Below are positions 3-7,104 of a stretch of DNA of 7,106 nucleotides, in pieces. Origin of the DNA: Clostridia bacterium. Its GTDB lineage: Bacteria; Bacillota_A; Clostridia; Christensenellales; Borkfalkiaceae. The DNA lies in NCBI GenBank assembly GCA_017621955.1, contig JAGASB010000058.1, positions 1-7,106 on the forward strand. Reading direction: 5' to 3'. Every line of letters starts with the position of its first letter. The stretch's first letter is position 1. Below the pieces are notes generated by a model. The model saw only the letters and a list, made by a program, of their open reading frames with translations, ran no database searches and was not told where the DNA came from. The position numbers and the translations under genes are program-made.

Positions 3-3000
3 GTAATAAACTCTGCATATATATCAAATGAAGTTATTAAGATAGGCGATAATGCGTTTAAGAATTATACTGCTTTAACTAATGTGGAAGTTCCACAAAG
101 TGTTGTTAGTATTTCAGGTGGCGCATTTAGCGGTTGTAGTTCGTTAGAAAGTATAACATTACCGTTTGTAGGTGGTAGTACTAACGCAAGTAATGGATAT
201 GATCAAGTGTTTGGTTACATATTTGGCTATAAAACAAGTTCAAGTAGTTTAACTATAAGTGGAGCTATTTATCAATATGGTTCAAGCAGTGGCACTTATA
301 AATATTACCATTATTATATACCTATGTCGTTAAATAGTGTTACAATAACAGGTGGTTCAAGCATAAGTTATCATGCGTTTTATAATTGCAAAAGTTTAAC
401 AAGTGTAGTAGTGGATGGCGTATCAAATATAGATTCTTATGCGTTCGATAATTGTACTTTATTAACCGTTTTAACAATAGATAATAGTGTTGAAAGCATA
501 GGTTGGAATGCGTTTTATAACTGCAATTCGCTGGCGAAAGTAAACTATACTGGCACAATAGACCAGTGGGCTGAAATTGAACGAGGAGGTGGATTTGCGA
601 ATTACTATAATTTATATTTAAACGATGTATTAGTTACAGAAGTAGTAATATCTACTGCAACAAGAATATCTGATAATGCGTTTGATAATTGTATTTCGCT
701 TGAAAGTGTTGTGATTCAAAAAAGTGTGACTAGTATAGGCTCTGAAGCGTTTTTGGGTTGTAGTTCGTTAACAAAAGTGATGATGGGCGAGGGTGTAATT
801 AGTATAGGAGATTATGCTTTTTGTGATTGTAGTTTGCTTGAAAATATAGTAATACCTGATAGCGTGACGAGTATAAGTTATAGAGCATTTTATAATTGTT
901 CCTCTTTAATAAATGTAAAAATAGGTGATGGTGTAGAGAGTATTGGAGAAGAAACGTTCTATAATTGCAATTTGCTAACAAGTGTAATAGTAGGAAATAG
1001 TGTAACAAGTATAGGTGAGGGTGCATTTGATTATTGTACTTTGTTAACGAAAGTAAACTATATAGGAACAATAGATGAATGGGCGCAAATAGATTTTGCT
1101 AATTATTCTTCGAATCCTTTGTATTATGCTCAAAATTTATATATAAATGATGTACTAGTAATAGAAGCAAGGCTAACATCTGTTTCTGAAATATCTGCAT
1201 ATGCATTCTATAATTGTAAGTCACTTGAAAGTATATTAATTTCGAATAATGTAGTAAGTATAGGTTCTTATGCGTTCGGTGGCTGTTCGTCATTAATAAA
1301 AGTAAATTATGCTGGAACGATAGACGAGTGGGCACAAATAGAGTTTGTTTCATCTTCTTCCAATCCATTATGTTATGCTGAAAAATTATATATAAATGAC
1401 GTATTAGTAACAGAAGCAATAATGGCCACGGCAACAAAAATATCTAGTTATGCATTCTATAATTGCAGCTCGCTTGAAAGGATAGTAATCCCAAACGTTG
1501 TAACAAGTATAGGTTTTGCTACATTCGAGGGCTGTAGTAATTTACAAGAATTAACATTGCCATTTGTAGGTACAATTAAAGACAAATTAAGTAATGCATA
1601 TTTTGGTTATGTATTTGGAGCAAGTAGTTATTCATATAATGTGAAATGTGTTCCAGTTTCACTTAAAACAGTAACTATAACAGGTGGTAAATATATAGAT
1701 ACATTCGCATTTTATAATTGCAATTCATTGCAAAGCATAAATATACCAGATACTGTAGTAAGTATAGGTTCTTCTGCGTTTGCTTATTGCTCTTCTTTAC
1801 AAAGCATAGATGTGCCAAATAGTGTAACGAGTATAGGTTATGAAGCATTCGAAAACTGCTCTTCGTTAACAAATGCAGTGATAGGAAACGGTGTAACGAG
1901 CATAGGTGAAAGTGTGTTCTATGGATGCAGTAGTTTAAGAAGTATATCATTGCCGTTTGTAGGTGCGACCAAAGAGGGTGTAAATAACACGCATTTTGGT
2001 TATATATTTGGAGCATATAATTATTCTAGTAATTATTCTTGTGTTCCAACATCGTTAAAAACTGTAATAATAACAGGTGGAGAAAGTATAGGAGAGTCAG
2101 CTTTTTCTGGATGTTGTTCATTAGAAAGTATAACATTACCATTTGTGGGTGGTAGCAAAATGGCAACAGAAGCAAGCAGGTCAACATTATTTGGATATGT
2201 CTTTGGTACTAGTAGTTATTCTGGAGGAGTGGAAACTAAACAGTATTATTCGCCATCTTTATCTGAAGTTTATTATATACCGGCAACACTGCAAAACGTG
2301 GTCATAACGGGCGGAAATATTTTTTATGGTGCTTTCTATGATTGCGATTCATTAGTGGATGTAAAAGTGGAAAATGGAGTAACGAGTATAGGTTCTTCTG
2401 CGTTCGCTTATTGCAACTCGTTAACAAGTATAACATTGCCGTTCGCAGGAGAGACAAGGGGTGAAACAGAAAATTATCATTTTGGTTATATATTTGGAGC
2501 AAGTAGTTATTTATATAATGGTTCCCATGTTCCATTTTCACTTAAAACAGTAACGATAACAGATAGCACTACTATAGGAATTCAAGTATTTTATGATTGT
2601 AGGTCGGTTGAAAGTATAATAATAAACGATGGTGTAGAAAGTATAGAGGGTAGAGCATTTTATCTTTGTAGTTCATTACAAAGTATAGATATACCAGACA
2701 GTGTAACGAGTATTGGTAGCGAGGCATTTTATCGTTGTACTTCATTACAAAGTATAGATATACCGGACAGTGTAACGAGTATTGGTTTTTTTGCGTTCTA
2801 TAATTGTAATTCACTCGCTACTGTAATATTTGGGGAAAATAGTCAAATGACAAGCATAGGTTCTGCCGCATTTGAAGGTTGTTCGTCACTGATAAGTATA
2901 AAAATCCCTGACAAAGTAGATAAAATAGGCTCTTCTGCGTTCGCTTATTGTAGTTCTCTAAAAACAGCAACAATTGGAGATAGCCTAACGAGTTTAGATG

Positions 3001-3647
3001 ATTCTGTGTTTTATCAATGCATTTCATTACAAAGTATAAATATACCAGACATAGTGACGAGTATAGGCTCTTATGCGTTTTATGATTGCAAAAATTTGAT
3101 TAGTGTAGTAATAGGAAGTAGCGTAGAAAAGATAGGTTCTTCTGCGTTCTTGGGGTGCGATAAAATTGTAGAAGTATATAATAAATCGAAATTAAAAATA
3201 ACGGCAAGTAGTTCTAATGGCTATGTAGGGTGGTATGCATTAAACGTATATGCAGAAGAGAACGAAAGTAAACTTACAACAGATAGCAATGGATATATTA
3301 TATACACGGATGGAGTGGATAAAATATTATTAGGCTACATAGGAAAAGAAACAGATTTAACCTTACCTAACGGTATAACTGCTATTTATAAATATGCCTT
3401 CTATTACTGTAGTTCGTTAACAAGTGTAACAATTCCTGACAGCGTAACAAGTATAGGTGACTATGCGTTTACTTATTGCGATTCGTTAACAAGTGTAACA
3501 TTTAAGGACACTTCGACTTGGTATAAAACAACAAACTATACTAATTGGCAAAATAAGACAGGTGGCACGGAGACAAATGTAGTAAATTTTTCTACTAATG
3601 CTACGTATTTAAAGTCCTATTATGATTCTTATTGGTATAAAATATAA
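3..3647 (+). CDS. BspA-like leucine-rich repeat (LRR_5) surface-type protein, 5' truncated by window edge
   Basis: The frame is open from the first complete codon at 3 to the TAA at 3645-3647, giving 1214 visible residues. Repeat sequence (IGDNAF...LTNVEVP) already precedes the GTG at 84, so that GTG is an internal Val codon and the real start and any signal peptide lie to the left. I count about 33 copies of the LRR_5/BspA unit of roughly 23 residues, with the pattern SIxxxAFxxCxSLxSVxIPxSVT. The array is interrupted by two families of non-LRR cassettes and a spacer near 3171-3375, and it ends in a Tyr/Trp-rich cap (3516-3644). I see no LPxTG motif, transmembrane tail or SLH/choline-binding repeat at the C-terminus. 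BspA-like proteins are typically extracellular adhesins or ligand-binding scaffolds. That role here is inferred from the family. The gene stands alone on its strand and ends in a shared terminator. It could be a chromosomal surface protein, mobile-element cargo or a phage receptor-binding protein. Confidence 0.93.
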   Translation, partial: VINSAYISNEVIKIGDNAFKNYTALTNVEVPQSVVSISGGAFSGCSSLESITLPFVGGSTNASNGYDQVFGYIFGYKTSSSSLTISGAIYQYGSSSGTYKYYHYYIPMSLNSVTITGGSSISYHAFYNCKSLTSVVVDGVSNIDSYAFDNCTLLTVLTIDNSVESIGWNAFYNCNSLAKVNYTGTIDQWAEIERGGGFANYYNLYLNDVLVTEVVISTATRISDNAFDNCISLESVVIQKSVTSIGSEAFLGCSSLTKVMMGEGVISIGDYAFCDCSLLENIVIPDSVTSISYRAFYNCSSLINVKIGDGVESIGEETFYNCNLLTSVIVGNSVTSIGEGAFDYCTLLTKVNYIGTIDEWAQIDFANYSSNPLYYAQNLYINDVLVIEARLTSVSEISAYAFYNCKSLESILISNNVVSIGSYAFGGCSSLIKVNYAGTIDEWAQIEFVSSSSNPLCYAEKLYINDVLVTEAIMATATKISSYAFYNCSSLERIVIPNVVTSIGFATFEGCSNLQELTLPFVGTIKDKLSNAYFGYVFGASSYSYNVKCVPVSLKTVTITGGKYIDTFAFYNCNSLQSINIPDTVVSIGSSAFAYCSSLQSIDVPNSVTSIGYEAFENCSSLTNAVIGNGVTSIGESVFYGCSSLRSISLPFVGATKEGVNNTHFGYIFGAYNYSSNYSCVPTSLKTVIITGGESIGESAFSGCCSLESITLPFVGGSKMATEASRSTLFGYVFGTSSYSGGVETKQYYSPSLSEVYYIPATLQNVVITGGNIFYGAFYDCDSLVDVKVENGVTSIGSSAFAYCNSLTSITLPFAGETRGETENYHFGYIFGASSYLYNGSHVPFSLKTVTITDSTTIGIQVFYDCRSVESIIINDGVESIEGRAFYLCSSLQSIDIPDSVTSIGSEAFYRCTSLQSIDIPDSVTSIGFFAFYNCNSLATVIFGENSQMTSIGSAAFEGCSSLISIKIPDKVDKIGSSAFAYCSSLKTATIGDSLTSLDDSVFYQCISLQSINIPDIVTSIGSYAFYDCKNLISVVIGSSVEKIGSSAFLGCDKIVEVYNKSKLKITASSSNGYVGWYALNVYAEENESKLTTDSNGYIIYTDGVDKILLGYIGKETDLTLPNGITAIYKYAFYYCSSLTSVTIPDSVTSIGDYAFTYCDSLTSVTFKDTSTWYKTTNYTNWQNKTGGTETNVVNFSTNATYLKSYYDSYWYKI
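159..2567 (+). repeat. Cassette family B: LPFxG...FGYxFG...SLKTVTITGG, five copies inside the LRR protein
   Basis: Five inserts sit at 159-356, 1557-1688, 1950-2081, 2136-2315 and 2436-2567. Each opens with LPFVG or LPFAG after an LRR turn, has a variable polar stretch, then FGY(I/V)FG, a Tyr/Ser-rich stretch, a (V/I)Px(S/T)L motif and a strand (TVTITGG-like) that leads into the next LRR unit. Copies 2, 3 and 5 are all 44 codons long. Copies 1 and 4 carry extra Ser/Tyr-rich residues in the middle. Words such as TTTTGGTTATATATTTGGAG recur exactly in copies 3 and 5, which supports duplication within the gene. I recognise the pattern from other Firmicutes LRR proteins but know no assigned function. 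Confidence 0.85.
537..1415 (+). repeat. Cassette family A: KVNYxGTIDxWAxI...LYxNDVLVTE, three copies inside the LRR protein
   Basis: Three inserts lie at 537-641, 1050-1166 and 1299-1415. Each begins KVNY(T/I/A)GTID(Q/E)WA(E/Q)I, passes through a short variable Asn/Ser/Tyr-rich section and ends LY(L/I)NDVLV(T/I)E before the next LRR unit. Copies 2 and 3 are the same length (39 codons) and are more alike than either is to copy 1, which is 35 codons. All three lie in the N-terminal half of the visible protein. Between cassettes 1 and 2 lie six LRR units, and between 2 and 3 only two. The Trp- and Asp-rich core could be a loop or small sub-domain on the solenoid. No function is known to me. Confidence 0.85.
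2672..2786 (+). repeat. Near-identical tandem 46-bp direct repeat, 69-bp period
   Basis: Copy 1 (2672-2717) and copy 2 (2741-2786) differ at one position only, CCAGA versus CCGGA, which is a silent Pro codon change. The offset is exactly 69 bp, one LRR unit, and both copies encode SLQSIDIPDSVTSIG. This is the most similar pair I noticed in the array and probably a recent unit duplication or local gene conversion. Confidence 0.85.
3516..3644 (+). other. C-terminal Tyr/Trp-rich cap of the LRR protein
   Basis: After the last LRR unit the protein changes to about 43 residues that start TWYKTTNYTNWQNKTGG, continue with an Asn/Thr-rich stretch and end YYDSYWYKI. I recall very similar endings on other gut Firmicutes LRR proteins, so it looks like a conserved terminal module rather than random sequence. 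It has no hydrophobic anchor or sorting signal. It may cap the solenoid or mediate attachment to the cell surface, but this is inference. Confidence 0.6.
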
Positions 3648-3658
3648 CTAGACACAAA

Positions 3659-3686
3659 AAAAGCCGAGCTGTAAAGCCCGGCTTTT
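3659..3686. terminator. Bidirectional Rho-independent terminator between convergent genes
   Basis: AAAAGCCGAGC (3659-3669) pairs with GCCCGGCTTTT (3676-3686) around the loop TGTAAA. On the plus strand the stem has one A-C mismatch at 3667/3678. On the minus-strand transcript the same position is a G-U wobble, so the hairpin is continuous there. The minus transcript is followed by a run of seven T residues, while the plus transcript has only four. It should therefore end the minus-strand operon strongly and the LRR transcript less strongly. It lies 11 bases past the LRR stop and 14 bases past the stop of the 93-residue gene. Confidence 0.88.
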
Positions 3687-3700
3687 AGCGTGTTATAAAA

Positions 3701-3982
3701 TTATAATAACGTATATGATTTTTTGTCAACGGTTATAGTGTTTCCGTTTTTGGTAGGTTGTCCGTAACTTTCGGCACGTAGTATAATTTTATTTGTTTGT
3801 TCGGTGACTTTTGGTATATCACCGTCATTGAATTTGTTTTGGTTTCCTACGGCAATAATAGAAAAGCCTTTTTCTACTAGCATACAACTAAAATCACTTA
3901 ATGAGTCGTAAGCGCCGTAAGAGTCCATAATAATTGAGTAGTTTTGTTCTTTGTTATAAGCTGTAATTCTAAAATAATTCAT
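3701..3982 (-). CDS. Hypothetical 93-residue protein downstream of the PcfJ-like gene
   Basis: The gene runs from ATG at 3982-3980 to a stop at 3703-3701. GGAG lies about 8 bases upstream of the ATG, immediately after the stop of the PcfJ-like gene, so it is the last gene of that operon, with a gap of 12 bases. The protein begins MNYFRITAYNKEQNYSIIMD and looks like a small alpha/beta fold. It has an N-terminal strand, a helix around DSLSDFSCMLVEKGF (residues 26-40), a strand SIIAVG and a C-terminal Thr/Lys-rich beta region with two Asn-Gly/Lys turns (residues 62-93). It has no signal peptide, transmembrane segment, cysteine cluster or catalytic motif that I recognise. Its place beside PcfJ/PcfK suggests a mobile-element accessory protein of unknown role. 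Confidence 0.85.
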   Translation of the reverse strand: MNYFRITAYNKEQNYSIIMDSYGAYDSLSDFSCMLVEKGFSIIAVGNQNKFNDGDIPKVTEQTNKIILRAESYGQPTKNGNTITVDKKSYTLL

Positions 3983-3994
3983 AGTTTATCTCCT

Positions 3995-5320
3995 TTATGC
4001 TGCAATTTGTTTTAATTGTTCGTTTGCGTATGGAAGCCATTTTTTGTTTACAAAGTCTAAAACTTCCATAGCAGGTCTTGAGTCGCTTTTTCCGTAACAT
4101 TGTAATATTTGTTTTTTGTCTAATGAATATTCCATAGTAACGAAAGGCGTTGAAATATCGTTTTTCTTTCTTATAAAGAAGATAAGTGTTTCTTCTCTAA
4201 TAAATTTTTCGCTATAATTCATACTACCTACGCAATGGTCTAAAATTTTGCCTTCAACTTCAAGTTCGTCTGGTGTTTTAGCAATTATAACTACGTAAGG
4301 ACATTTTTGCGTTTTTTCAAGATTATGATATTTGCCCGCAACGACAGCAAAGTTTTCAAATATTTCTTTGCGTTTTTCACGATTTTCCATATCCTTTTTA
4401 GTCTTATATTGGTCGGTTCTAATTCTGTGCCAACGCTTAAAATCGTGGGGTAAACGATTCTTTTCTAAAGACATATCAAGTCCTAAATATTCGCAAGCCG
4501 TGTAATAGTCCCTATAACTATAAAAGTTAGTAATTTGTTTGCCAAGATAGTTTATAAGGTCTTTATAACTACCGAATTTTTTCAAGAACGAATCTAAATC
4601 ACCACGCATATACATTCTGTTCGTTTCCATTATGATTTGTTCATAATCTGGTGATGTATTCTTTTTATAAGCCCTTAAAACAGGTGCAACGTGATAAGCG
4701 TTTACACCACCTAACTTATCTTTATTTCTTACAAGCCACTTTGCAAACTTCTTATCTTTACCAACTTTGCGAAGTATTGTTCTGCTTACAGCTAGCGTTT
4801 GAAAACCGAATTTTGCAAGTAGTTCTAGTTGTGGAAACTCACGATATAAACGTAAGTAATTTATAGGGCAATTAGGCTTAAATATATCTATGGCAGAATA
4901 CTTAAATTCTTTTATTTTCAACGCATAATCGAGATTAACTACTGTTGCGTATGGATTATAGTATTTATAGCCACAATCATACCATTTACCGTCATTATAA
5001 TAGGGGCGAATATTGTATCTATATTTAATACCTTCGTCATACCAGCCTACTTTATATGCGTAAACGCCTAAATAACAATATTCAAGGTCTTTGACGTAAC
5101 AACGTTCAGAATTTACCCCATGAACTGCTACTTGTTTTATTAAGGCTATTTGCTTTGTTTTATTACGCATAGCAACAGTTATTTTTACTAATTCACCATC
5201 TAGTTTAGTAAGGTAGGCATAAAAACGCAACCCCTTTTGTTGTGGGCAGTTTTCTTTATCTAACTTTCTTATTTTCTTTTCTATGTATTTTGGTATAGGT
5301 TTAATTTTTTCTATCTTCAT
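3995..5320 (-). CDS. PcfJ-like protein
   Basis: This 441-residue protein starts at ATG 5320-5318 and is preceded by GGAG about 8 bases upstream, inside the end of the previous gene. It carries the PcfJ-like signature in its C-terminal quarter. That signature comprises CPYVV (340-344), LDHCVGS (360-366), FFIR (381-384), TPFVTMEY (391-398), ILQCYGK (405-411) and FVNKKW (423-428). The HC and QCYGK residues are the conserved features that made the family recognisable. The N-terminal two thirds are basic and Tyr-rich, with paired CxY segments around 74-125 and a helical middle (155-330). PcfJ is named from the enterococcal conjugative plasmid pCF10, and its relatives occur on conjugative elements and phages. 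The molecular activity is not established to my knowledge. Its start overlaps the stop of the PcfK-MutS_I gene by ATGA, so the two are translationally coupled, matching the usual PcfK-PcfJ pairing. Confidence 0.9.
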   Translation of the reverse strand: MKIEKIKPIPKYIEKKIRKLDKENCPQQKGLRFYAYLTKLDGELVKITVAMRNKTKQIALIKQVAVHGVNSERCYVKDLEYCYLGVYAYKVGWYDEGIKYRYNIRPYYNDGKWYDCGYKYYNPYATVVNLDYALKIKEFKYSAIDIFKPNCPINYLRLYREFPQLELLAKFGFQTLAVSRTILRKVGKDKKFAKWLVRNKDKLGGVNAYHVAPVLRAYKKNTSPDYEQIIMETNRMYMRGDLDSFLKKFGSYKDLINYLGKQITNFYSYRDYYTACEYLGLDMSLEKNRLPHDFKRWHRIRTDQYKTKKDMENREKRKEIFENFAVVAGKYHNLEKTQKCPYVVIIAKTPDELEVEGKILDHCVGSMNYSEKFIREETLIFFIRKKNDISTPFVTMEYSLDKKQILQCYGKSDSRPAMEVLDFVNKKWLPYANEQLKQIAA

Positions 5321-6351
5321 AATTTTATCTCCATTTGATTTCCAAAGATTTTTTGTAGGCTTTGTATAATATCGTTTTCTTGTTGAGAAGATATTACTTC
5401 GCCCGTTTCTAAATTAACTGTGAACTTATCGTCGGTTTTGTCGTGTAAGGTGATTTTGTCACCATCCATTACAACAAGAGTATTTATTTTTGTTATTCTC
5501 TTAAAATAATTTTCTGCAACGTGTTCTGGAAAGCCTACCATAGGAACTCTTTTTGGAGCTCCAAAGTCACGTCCTGTCATAGTTAAATCAAGTTCGTTTG
5601 CAATTATTTTTGCGTTATCGCCAAAAACTTCATAGAAGTCACCTAAACGATAGGCGATAATATAATCGGGGTATTGAATCTGAACTTTTAAGTATTTCAT
5701 ATAAATAGGTGAAATAGGCTTTTCTTCGGGTTCAGGTTCTTCCGTTTGTTCTTTTTCAAGTTCTGCCATAGCATCAACAATATCGTCTTCTGTTGGCTTG
5801 TCATCATCTTGTTCTTCGTCAACGTCTAACGGGTCAGGTTGAGCCTTCATTGCAAGTTGTCCTTTATATGAAAGGGTAGAAGTAGTTTTTTCATTATCTA
5901 CTTGCTCTTTTTTGTCTTCTGCTTTTGGCGTTAAGAAATCAAATAAAGACATTTGTGGTTCAGGCTTTTTAATTGGTGAAACGTAGGTAGCCGTAGGTGT
6001 TTTAGTAGTTGTTGTAGCAACCTTTTTATCAAGCTTGTATTCTGTTCCATCTTCGTTATATAACGTTCCTTCTATGCTATCTTCTTCAAAGTAGTGTATA
6101 GCCCAGCCAAATACTGTATCGTCATTAACATAAGCACCTCTGGAACTTTTAGTTGCAATTTTTCTTGCTTCATCAGTTGCGTAACTCCAAAAGCCGTTTA
6201 GGTCTTTTTTGTTAAGCAGACGTTTATCGTCTTTTGTTATATAAACGCCGTTGTTGATTTTTTCAGCAAGAATTTCGCTGACGTTATTTTCTAAATATTC
6301 TTTAATGCGTTCTTGTTCATTGTTTTCAGTTTTAAGATTTAATGTTTTCAT
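5317..6351 (-). CDS. PcfK-like domain fused to a stand-alone MutS domain I (mismatch-recognition) protein
   Basis: The start is ATG 6351-6349, with AAGGAGGA (6359-6366) seven bases upstream. Residues 1 to about 105 resemble PcfK-like proteins: ERIKEYLENNVSE (14-26), LAEKINNGV (28-36), FWSYATDEAR (54-63) and VFGWAIHYFEEDSIEG (80-95). A low-complexity linker follows (106-212), Thr/Pro/Lys-rich and then strongly acidic, and it contains PQMSLFDFL (132-140). Residues 213 to about 300 match the N-terminal domain of MutS. They show SPIYMKYL, then RLGDFYEVF with the Phe-x-Glu wedge at F239/E241, ELDLTMTGRD, PMVGFPEH and VAENYFKRI. MutS is usually about 850 residues, but here the connector, lever, clamp and ATPase domains are absent. 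MutS_I without the ATPase is known on large mobile-element proteins. In MutS, the wedge contacts mispaired bases; here DNA binding is inferred. The gene is coupled to the PcfJ-like gene by an ATGA overlap. Confidence 0.9.
   Translation of the reverse strand: MKTLNLKTENNEQERIKEYLENNVSEILAEKINNGVYITKDDKRLLNKKDLNGFWSYATDEARKIATKSSRGAYVNDDTVFGWAIHYFEEDSIEGTLYNEDGTEYKLDKKVATTTTKTPTATYVSPIKKPEPQMSLFDFLTPKAEDKKEQVDNEKTTSTLSYKGQLAMKAQPDPLDVDEEQDDDKPTEDDIVDAMAELEKEQTEEPEPEEKPISPIYMKYLKVQIQYPDYIIAYRLGDFYEVFGDNAKIIANELDLTMTGRDFGAPKRVPMVGFPEHVAENYFKRITKINTLVVMDGDKITLHDKTDDKFTVNLETGEVISSQQENDIIQSLQKIFGNQMEIKL
5932..5955 (-). other. Candidate sliding-clamp (DnaN) binding motif QMSLF in the fusion protein linker
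   Basis: Residues 133-137 of the PcfK-MutS_I protein read QMSLF, followed by DFL. The bacterial clamp-binding consensus is QL(S/D)LF, and the clamp motif at the C-terminus of E. coli MutS is QMSLL. The motif lies in a low-complexity linker between two folded domains, which is where accessible clamp motifs are usually found. Binding is inferred from sequence only. Confidence 0.5.
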
Positions 6352-6383: not shown

Positions 6384-6409
6384 AAAAAAGCCCTTCTTAT
6401 CTAGAAAGG
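6384..6409 (-). terminator. Small hairpin plus T-run after the 80-residue gene (intra-operon terminator or attenuator)
   Basis: On the minus strand CCTTTC (6409-6404) pairs with GAAGGG (6396-6391) around a 7-base loop, with one G-U wobble. It is followed by C and six T residues (6389-6384). The stem begins inside the last codons and includes the TAG stop of the 80-residue gene in its loop. It is a short stem, so termination is probably partial. No convincing -35/-10 pair is visible in the 49 bases before the next gene, so the downstream genes may depend on read-through. Confidence 0.55.
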
Positions 6410-6643
6410 AACTTCACGCCAAATACCGTCTTGTATCTCTTTTATTGTAACGGGTATTTCTCGCCATTTAGGTTTTTTAAGTTTGTGGTTATCTTCCCTT
6501 GAATTAGGTGGATAACGTTTATAGTGGTTAATCATATAAATAGCATCATTATAATTTCGTGTTAAAAAGTGTCGTATGTATTGATTAGAGCCTTGCTCTT
6601 TATAACAGACTTTATATCCATTTTGAACGGTATATTTTTTCAT
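6401..6643 (-). CDS. Hypothetical 80-residue basic protein
   Basis: I place the start at ATG 6643-6641 rather than at the TTG two codons earlier. The ATG overlaps the stop of the preceding gene as ATGA, and AAGGTGA (6651-6657) lies seven bases upstream. The protein starts MKKYTVQNGYKVCYKEQ, continues with TRNYNDAIYMINHYKRYPP and ends KPKWREIPVTIKEIQDGIWREVPF. The two W-R-E-(I/V)-P repeats in the last 24 residues are its most distinctive feature. It is basic, with no signal peptide, membrane segment or recognised enzyme motif. I have seen similar small proteins on Firmicutes mobile elements but cannot give it a function. It is coupled to the fragment upstream and precedes the PcfK-MutS_I gene by 49 bases with a small terminator between them. 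Confidence 0.82.
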   Translation of the reverse strand: MKKYTVQNGYKVCYKEQGSNQYIRHFLTRNYNDAIYMINHYKRYPPNSREDNHKLKKPKWREIPVTIKEIQDGIWREVPF

Positions 6644-7104
6644 ATGCAAATCACCTTCATTTTTTGAGCAAGTCTTGGTAGGGCAGAATAGGCTCTATTA
6701 GTCATTATTGCTTGGTGTATTCGTCTATCGTTAGAAAAATAGTTTCTCATAGCAAATTGTTCACCTTTACGGGTTAGTCTTTTTAATTCGTAGTTGTCTT
6801 CGCCGTCGTGGTGATAACCCCATATTTTTAAGTGTCCGTCTTCGTCATAAAAACGAATTCTCTCAAGGTGAGATATGGTTTTGAATAAATCGTGAGGTGA
6901 ACGAATAAATTTGCCACCTTCAGCTGGTCCATACCAACGTCCACAAGTTCCTGTTAAAAGATATGTATCGTGGCTTAAAATTTTATATATCTGCTCGTAA
7001 AAATCTTGCCACGCTAAATTGTCTTGTGCGTCTATTTCTTCATAGATAACATCTTCGGGAATGTCGTCTATAGTTTTCCAGCCCCTTTCTTCTGAAAAGG
7101 TGTC
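6640..7104 (-). CDS. Unknown mobile-element protein, 3' part only (start beyond right edge)
   Basis: This is the only minus-strand frame that stays open from the right edge. It gives 154 residues before TGA at 6642-6640. No start is assigned because the frame continues past 7104. Visible landmarks are DIPEDVIYEEID (14-25), LAWQDFYEQIYKIL (30-43), LLTGTCGRWYGPAEGGKFI (49-67), a strand-turn LERIRFYDEDGHLKIWGYHHDG (80-101), YELKRLTRKG (105-114) and ALPRLAQK (141-148). The composition is balanced and the codon use matches the neighbours, so it is a real gene and not a shadow. I do not recognise a named domain. The His/Asp-rich HHDGED segment might suggest metal binding but no canonical nuclease motif is clear. 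It is the first visible gene of the minus-strand operon and overlaps the next start by four bases. Confidence 0.8.
   Translation of the reverse strand, partial: DTFSEERGWKTIDDIPEDVIYEEIDAQDNLAWQDFYEQIYKILSHDTYLLTGTCGRWYGPAEGGKFIRSPHDLFKTISHLERIRFYDEDGHLKIWGYHHDGEDNYELKRLTRKGEQFAMRNYFSNDRRIHQAIMTNRAYSALPRLAQKMKVICI
6651..6657 (-). promoter_or_regulatory. Ribosome binding site that fixes the start of the 80-residue gene
   Basis: AAGGTGA on the minus strand lies seven bases before ATG 6643 and would be too close to the alternative TTG at 6649. It sits inside the last codons of the upstream gene, as expected for coupled translation. Confidence 0.65.

Follow-up and report, generated by a model that had tools for sequence, protein, structure and literature searches.

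Up to 2017 the only described occurrence of domain I of the mismatch repair protein MutS (MutS-I) outside MutS was in polyvalent proteins, multidomain proteins of mobile elements in Firmicutes and Bacteroidetes, where the domain is thought to be derived from classical MutS and was suggested to bind short stretches of single-stranded DNA (Iyer et al. 2017, PMC5512222; papers are cited here from excerpts of their text). The PcfK domain (PF14058), known from PcfK of pCF10, is the domain of the Cas9 inhibitor AcrIIA9 (PMC6739104). Here we describe a protein that contains both domains. It is encoded in a 7,106-nucleotide stretch of DNA from a Clostridia bacterium (contig JAGASB010000058.1), referred to below as the window. 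The linker between the two domains carries a conserved motif of the sliding-clamp-binding type. Judged from the sequence and a structure model, the protein is proposed to be a clamp-tethered binder of distorted DNA that serves an integrative mobile element, with a probability of about one half. The fusion gene is laid out as follows.

5317..6351, minus strand: PcfK-MutS_I fusion gene, 344 amino acids (open reading frame (ORF); Pfam PcfK and MutS_I; AlphaFold model)
6037..6351, minus strand: PcfK/AcrIIA9-type domain, residues 1-105 (Pfam match to residues 45-94, 31.4 bits)
5722..6036, minus strand: acidic, mostly disordered linker, residues 106-210 (AlphaFold confidence; net charge -14)
5941..5955, minus strand: sliding-clamp-type motif QMSLF, residues 133-137 (conservation and published consensus)
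5431..5721, minus strand: MutS domain I, residues 211-307
5629..5643, minus strand: mismatch wedge GDFYE, residues 237-241, with F239 and E241 (conservation)

PcfK and MutS_I are the only Pfam families matched by the fusion protein at E<=1. The PcfK match passes the family cut-off of 27 bits and is partial, covering positions 29-73 of a profile of 139; MutS_I is matched by residues 215-289 (E 4.5e-19). The connector, lever, clamp and ATPase domains of MutS were not found at the same threshold, and the NCBIfam MutS models match residues 214-293 and 214-290 only, scoring 74.9 and 71.8 bits where the cut-offs are 480 and 641.7. The absence of an NCBIfam AcrIIA9 match in the window protein carries no weight, as pCF10 PcfK likewise lacks one. 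In the AlphaFold model the predicted local distance difference test (pLDDT) score, averaged over blocks of ten residues, is 79-95 over the PcfK domain and 37-63 over residues 111-210. The model matches MutS domain I; its full-length search list was filled by this domain, so that the PcfK fold was barely probed, and no sequence match to PcfK was present among solved structures. The PcfK domain is conserved also in phage proteins that consist of PcfK without MutS-I (alignment A4). The model is further resembled by predicted structures of three small phage proteins in BFVD, where they are entered as 'MutS domain I' or as 'DNA mismatch repair protein': A0A8S5PL02 (E 2.6e-4), A0A8S5L9N2 (E 1.2e-3) and A0A8S5PPT8 (E 1.5e-6). 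These are of 74, 84 and 153 amino acids and, unlike the fusion, have scant room beyond domain I.

An earlier note on this DNA had proposed a PcfK-like N-terminus joined to a lone MutS domain I, with the GDFYE wedge retained, the ATPase, lever and connector domains absent, and the gene in one operon with PcfJ. All of this is borne out by the Pfam and NCBIfam matches, the structure model, the invariance of GDFYE in alignment A1 and the 4-base overlap with a gene that matches Pfam PcfJ. The note also held that the role of such a module had not been described. That holds only in part: PMC5512222 had already reported MutS-I apart from MutS, in proteins of mobile elements from Bacteroidetes and Firmicutes, and AcrIIA9 has the same domain as PcfK. 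Like the polyvalent proteins, the window protein is a multidomain mobile-element protein with MutS-I. In polyvalent proteins MutS-I mostly accompanies ArdC-N (PMC5512222), whereas the window protein, of 344 amino acids, has PcfK, coupling to PcfJ and a clamp-type motif. The terms PcfK, PcfJ, clamp and DnaN do not occur in the main text of that paper, and neither 'clamp' nor 'DnaN' occurs in PMC6739104.

The wedge is retained across the family. In the homologue search at least 8000 candidates were scored, at least 7652 of them at E<=1e-3, and the wedge is kept in all 120 homologues among the matches listed; loss of F239 or E241 in close homologues, which the earlier note had named as evidence against MutS-I, was not seen among these. 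The wedge is also present in 71 of 72 distinct fusions; of the 49 that were retrieved without a wedge pattern, 48 have it. A MutS pseudogene or truncated MutS is ruled out, as PF01624 is present in all 120 listed homologues, PF14058 in most and the wedge in all. In a tree built on 103 columns of the domain, all nine MutS rows fall to one side of a starred branch (100/97). Many forks of this tree are open, its bootstrap values have not settled, and L013_KM and L057_KM, both poor fragments, sit on very long branches; it is compatible with one capture of the domain or with several. MutS_I was matched in all seven element-bearing genomes searched, with an additional MutS-size frame (862-988 amino acids) in six; in genome G006 the single MutS_I match is the fusion itself.

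The second conserved feature lies in the linker. The consensus for binding to the bacterial sliding clamp is QL[S/D]LF, or in general form QxxLF (PMC12309361; likewise PMC4549789). The window protein has QMSLF followed by D. Q133 is invariant (46/46), S135, F137 and D138 are conserved at 90% or more, and the surrounding residues 111-150 have pLDDT values of 38-61. A narrower initial pattern found the motif in 53 of the 62 located linkers of 72 distinct fusions, and the misses prompted widening to the published general form. With the pattern Q..[LIMF]F, all 70 located linkers of these fusions match, whereas 500 shuffles gave 1.1 on average and 5 at most; the two fusions outside the linker-locating pattern have, by eye, QMSMF and QLSIF. 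Among the 120 listed homologues 116 of 118 located linkers match, both misses being QLSFL.

The motif recurs in PcfK proteins that have no MutS-I, such as pCF10 PcfK and those of viral contigs, where it lies past the PcfK domain. It was found in 7/7 such proteins from genomes, and of the 120 PcfK-only homologues listed in a separate search 91 have it within their final 15 residues (shuffled mean 0.38). Ten of 14 named plasmid or phage PcfK proteins match: pCF10 (QIDLF), Streptococcus salivarius and two Streptococcus phages (QLDLF), E. wangshanyuanii (QMDLF), Parabacteroides and Phocaeicola (QLTLF), Bacteroides fragilis (QPSLF), Bacteroides phage BS-TP3 (QMSLF) and Treponema (QLELF). Three of the others have QLDLL or QLSLL, and one lacks the Q. 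Because the shuffles preserve composition and ignore kinship, it is the invariance of the Q within a disordered segment, together with the reappearance of the motif in Bacillota, Bacteroidota and Spirochaetota, that carries the argument. A similar motif is present near the C-terminus of two of three named full-length MutS proteins (Cytobacillus QLSFF, Geosporobacter QLDLF; none in Vescimonas); six further host MutS stretches stop short of the C-terminus and are outside this count.

Thus, by its sequence, the linker motif is of the sliding-clamp type, a Q-motif placed in a disordered or terminal segment, and it probably docks on the host replication clamp (DnaN). Insertion-sequence transposases, likewise proteins of mobile elements, attach to the host clamp by a short Q-L-x-L-F motif, which in their case has been tested biochemically (PMC4549789). 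With MutS the fusion shares the fold of domain I, the Phe-x-Glu wedge and, for some MutS proteins, the clamp-binding motif. The fusion thus appears to combine two contacts of MutS, wedge and clamp motif, without the MutS engine; the nucleotide-driven steps of MutS would be impossible for it. In the open-licence literature no paper was found that combines AcrIIA9 with the sliding clamp, or MutS domain I with phage and mismatch.

The fusion gene is coupled to PcfJ and lies among small genes, some of which recur in the 94 loci compared.

3995..5320, minus strand: PcfJ gene, 441 amino acids, downstream of the fusion with a 4-base overlap (Pfam PcfJ, E 1.2e-24)
3701..3982, minus strand: small conserved gene c1, 93 amino acids, downstream of PcfJ (in 53/94 loci, always on the same strand)
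6401..6649, minus strand: small conserved gene c3, 82 amino acids, upstream (in 39/94 loci, always on the same strand)
6640..7104, minus strand: small conserved gene c15, cut by the window end (in 11/94 loci; complete in L010, 180 amino acids)
3-3647, plus strand: BspA-type leucine-rich-repeat (LRR) protein, 5' end cut (Pfam LRR_5, E 2.5e-203)

Between the convergent LRR and small genes, at about 3655-3687, an imperfect palindrome (AAAAGCCGAGC...GCCCGGCTTTT) that looks terminator-like in both directions was noted by eye. A member of the LRR-gene cluster, in L038, has by eye a TIR-like segment ahead of the repeats.

In a genome scan the best 80 of 429 loci were examined. They come mostly from metagenome-assembled genomes of gut and rumen Clostridia, a few being labelled as other phyla. 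The fusion with a separate PcfJ gene is present in 62 of these 80 loci (PcfJ being split in one). The remainder comprise one three-way fusion, eight fusions as contig-terminal ORF without PcfJ, seven loci with PcfJ and a PcfK that lacks MutS-I, and two with PcfJ alone by the ORF test; in L030, one of the last two, the MutS-I domain was recovered by six-frame search. The share of fusions among PcfK loci is overstated in these counts, because one scan pattern sits within MutS-I. On viral contigs, scanned with both kinds of pattern, 11 of 13 loci hold PcfK without MutS-I together with PcfJ, one holds PcfJ only, and one (L093) MutS-I without PcfK. The protein of L093 (9884-10357) is a short MutS-I protein with GDFYE. 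As viral loci carry PcfK and PcfJ without MutS-I, these two look like a core pair to which MutS-I was added, and the view of the fusion as a typical double-stranded DNA phage gene is unsupported. Gene fusions within the block also occur: a PcfK-MutS_I-PcfJ protein of 606 amino acids (L068, 10001-11821) and a PcfK-PcfJ protein of 552 amino acids in Phocaeicola dorei (L146, 2004-3662), either of which may be genuine or the product of a deletion, assembly or frameshift event. In 6 of 13 named PcfK stretches the neighbourhood includes a gene for SSB, RecT, a helicase or a Holliday junction resolvase.

The element around the block was read in four stretches of 80-120 kilobases (kb) from three genomes, which hold six copies of the fusion block. 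Five of the six share a common layout, in which small genes, the fusion, PcfJ and usually c1 are followed by a variable segment, with a rolling-circle Rep (PF23343, REP_ORF2-G2P), c16 and further conserved proteins beyond it on the opposite strand. A large serine recombinase stands at or past the far end in four of these five. By gene content the element spans about 24 kb (G001 C2 266154-290416; G003 C2 63626-87330). In these two copies 43 of 50 ORFs of at least 90 amino acids were scanned; two crossed the stretch border and five were left out. Pfam families among the 43 include Rep, serine recombinase, EcoRI methylase, ABC-3C CTD11, Apea-like HEPN and sigma factors. No relaxase or type IV secretion system gene is among the 25 families listed out of 36 Pfam families matched, and no named capsid or terminase among the 25 PHROGs listed out of 31; the element is not clearly conjugative. 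The conserved multi-span protein c16 has a GSMGKKKT stretch, no Pfam match over the cut-offs, no PHROGs match and no relative in a viral-contig scan with patterns from one sequence; the by-eye idea of a filamentous-phage-like ATPase is not claimed for it, Pfam and PHROGs being without a match.

Up to three fusion copies occur in a genome, with differing cargo. Of the 63 fusion loci that have PcfJ, 17 contain an ArdA-like gene, c10 (Pfam ArdA). Another cargo gene, c24, occurs in 6 of 94 loci, and its products look by eye like cytosine methyltransferases. MT835493.1, filed as Bacteriophage sp., has the gene block and Rep as in the integrative elements. Between its PcfJ block and Rep (L131, 16949-30135) sit phosphorothioation-type defence genes, for which the best PADLOC models are PbeA, PbeC, SspA, SspB, SspC and BrxP, the last also matching SspD more weakly. 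The element in the window is cut by the contig ends, and that of the relative L010, where the same LRR gene adjoins the block, likewise begins at the edge of its contig. Loci of these elements in gut Clostridia include L031, L045, L058, L065 and L079. In G002, a genome that has both a fusion and MutS, two giant polyvalent-type frames with MutS_I were observed, of 3583 and 4095 amino acids (C3 30524 and C8 60379; L109 and L112).

The wedge, the clamp motif, the replication and recombination neighbours and the coupling to PcfJ are counted in favour of a clamp-tethered DNA-distortion binder. QMSLF would dock the protein on host DnaN at sites where the element is copied. The wedge would then sample nascent or heteroduplex DNA for mispairs, bulges and hairpin distortions, and the fusion would hold PcfJ at the distorted site. 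In MutS the ATPase, connector and clamp domains are needed for switching and for calling MutL. Lacking the ATPase, the fusion may reach sites of MutS and stay there without calling MutL. The clamp reportedly recruits MutS to mismatches and stabilises it there (PMC9690074, citing Simmons 2008). Because MutS uses the same clamp and the fusion could neither switch nor call MutL, a site occupied by the fusion would be concealed from host MutS. The likeliest benefit would be persistence of the replication or recombination intermediates of the element. Blunted host mismatch repair might be the aim or a side effect, with help to PcfJ at element intermediates as the alternative aim. The fusion may thus act as a stripped-down MutS for the element and not for the host; binding of distorted DNA or competition with host MutS, as the earlier note had suggested, is possible judging from the conserved motifs.

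Several observations weigh against this proposal. One fusion variant, L081, lacks the wedge Phe. MutS domain I has no net positive charge (0 in the window, median -4 in 90 fusion segments, median -3 in nine MutS segments), and in isolation it may bind DNA weakly. The clamp-type motif is missing from three of nine distinct viral PcfK-only proteins, the other six having it, and from the last 15 residues of 29 of the 120 listed PcfK-only homologues; 15 of these 29 are near variants that keep the Q (e.g. QLSFDFF, QMAFDF, QMTILDF, QLSLL), 10 have no Q (NFSIF, RLSLF) and four show no trace. All 11 viral PcfK-PcfJ loci are without MutS-I, so PcfK functions in phages without it. Rep is found in 9 of the 24 fusion loci with at least 8 kb downstream. 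The conserved motif could bind PcfJ instead of the clamp. Finally, against the two nearest relatives, L009 and L010, non-synonymous to synonymous changes are 7:2 and 7:1 in the fusion, versus 0:1 and 2:7 in PcfJ, so that on these few changes strong recent purifying selection is not seen in the fusion gene, unlike PcfJ. The selection evidence is mixed, as wedge and motif have been retained over deep time. The faster change of the fusion than of PcfJ, again from few events, speaks against a simple housekeeping role and agrees with an arms race.

A sharper version would make the fusion a dominant-negative mini-MutS, in which clamp tether and wedge without ATPase take the place of host MutS at clamp and mismatch and so suppress mismatch repair or anti-recombination at element DNA, with PcfK/AcrIIA9 proteins being clamp-binding in general. 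This is put forward tentatively, as a doubtful but serious candidate. Two other explanations, both unlikely, are live rivals. In the first, the fusion is an anti-CRISPR (clustered regularly interspaced short palindromic repeats) protein, its PcfK half an AcrIIA9-type Cas9 inhibitor and MutS-I, perhaps with the clamp motif, directing it to element DNA or distorted R-loop DNA within an anti-defence operon beside ArdA. AcrIIA9 emerged as a SpyCas9 inhibitor in a screen of human gut libraries (PMC6538845), the pCF10 record labels PcfK 'Cas9 inhibitor AcrIIA9 family protein', and both c10 and the excess of amino-acid change over that in PcfJ (few changes) would suit such a role. However, Cas9 inhibition requires neither MutS-I nor a clamp motif, and in 6 of the 13 named stretches the genes near PcfK are those of replication or recombination. 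AcrIIA9 homologues, moreover, occur with various CRISPR subtypes, and no genome carrying II-A self-targeting spacers was found to have one (PMC6739104).

The second, which we hold to be slightly less probable, is a DNA coat of the kind proposed by Iyer et al., in which MutS-I binds single-stranded or mispaired element DNA and protects it on entry, with no role at the clamp or in mismatch repair. For the MutS-I domains that polyvalent proteins carry in Firmicutes and Bacteroidetes, binding of single-stranded DNA has been proposed (PMC5512222), and the giant MutS_I frames of G002 lie in a fusion-bearing genome. The window protein, however, has no ArdC-N, protease or other polyvalent domain (Pfam, E<=1), whereas about 80% of the MutS-I cases in that set co-occur with ArdC-N (PMC5512222), and the invariant clamp-type motif would be left unexplained. 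Improbable, lastly, is a reading without clamp contact, in which PcfK binds PcfJ through QMSLF as its tail and MutS-I merely anchors the PcfK-PcfJ complex to DNA in a generic way. In its favour, most PcfK loci have both the motif and PcfJ, and fused genes occur (L068; the 552-residue protein of Phocaeicola dorei). Against it, the clamp consensus is fitted at each position (Q, L/M/I, S/D/T, L/I/M/F, F), and PcfK-only proteins carry the motif at the C-terminus, where known clamp partners have theirs (PMC12309361, PMC4549789).

PcfK and PcfJ are common proteins of mobile elements, for which no stated mechanism was found in the open-licence literature. The motif, which recurs in much of the PcfK family, offers a first concrete and testable partner, host DnaN. 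If the clamp-tethered reading is true, nature would have coupled an ATPase-free MutS wedge to a clamp tether and so put to the test how much mismatch recognition can do alone, and the fusion would be a candidate mobile-element antagonist of mismatch repair. In the table of PMC6538845 the mechanism column for AcrIIA9 is empty, and the motif raises the question whether the effect of AcrIIA9 passes through the replication clamp. If PcfK/AcrIIA9 proteins do bind the clamp, the block of Cas9 by AcrIIA9 in cells would need a fresh look.

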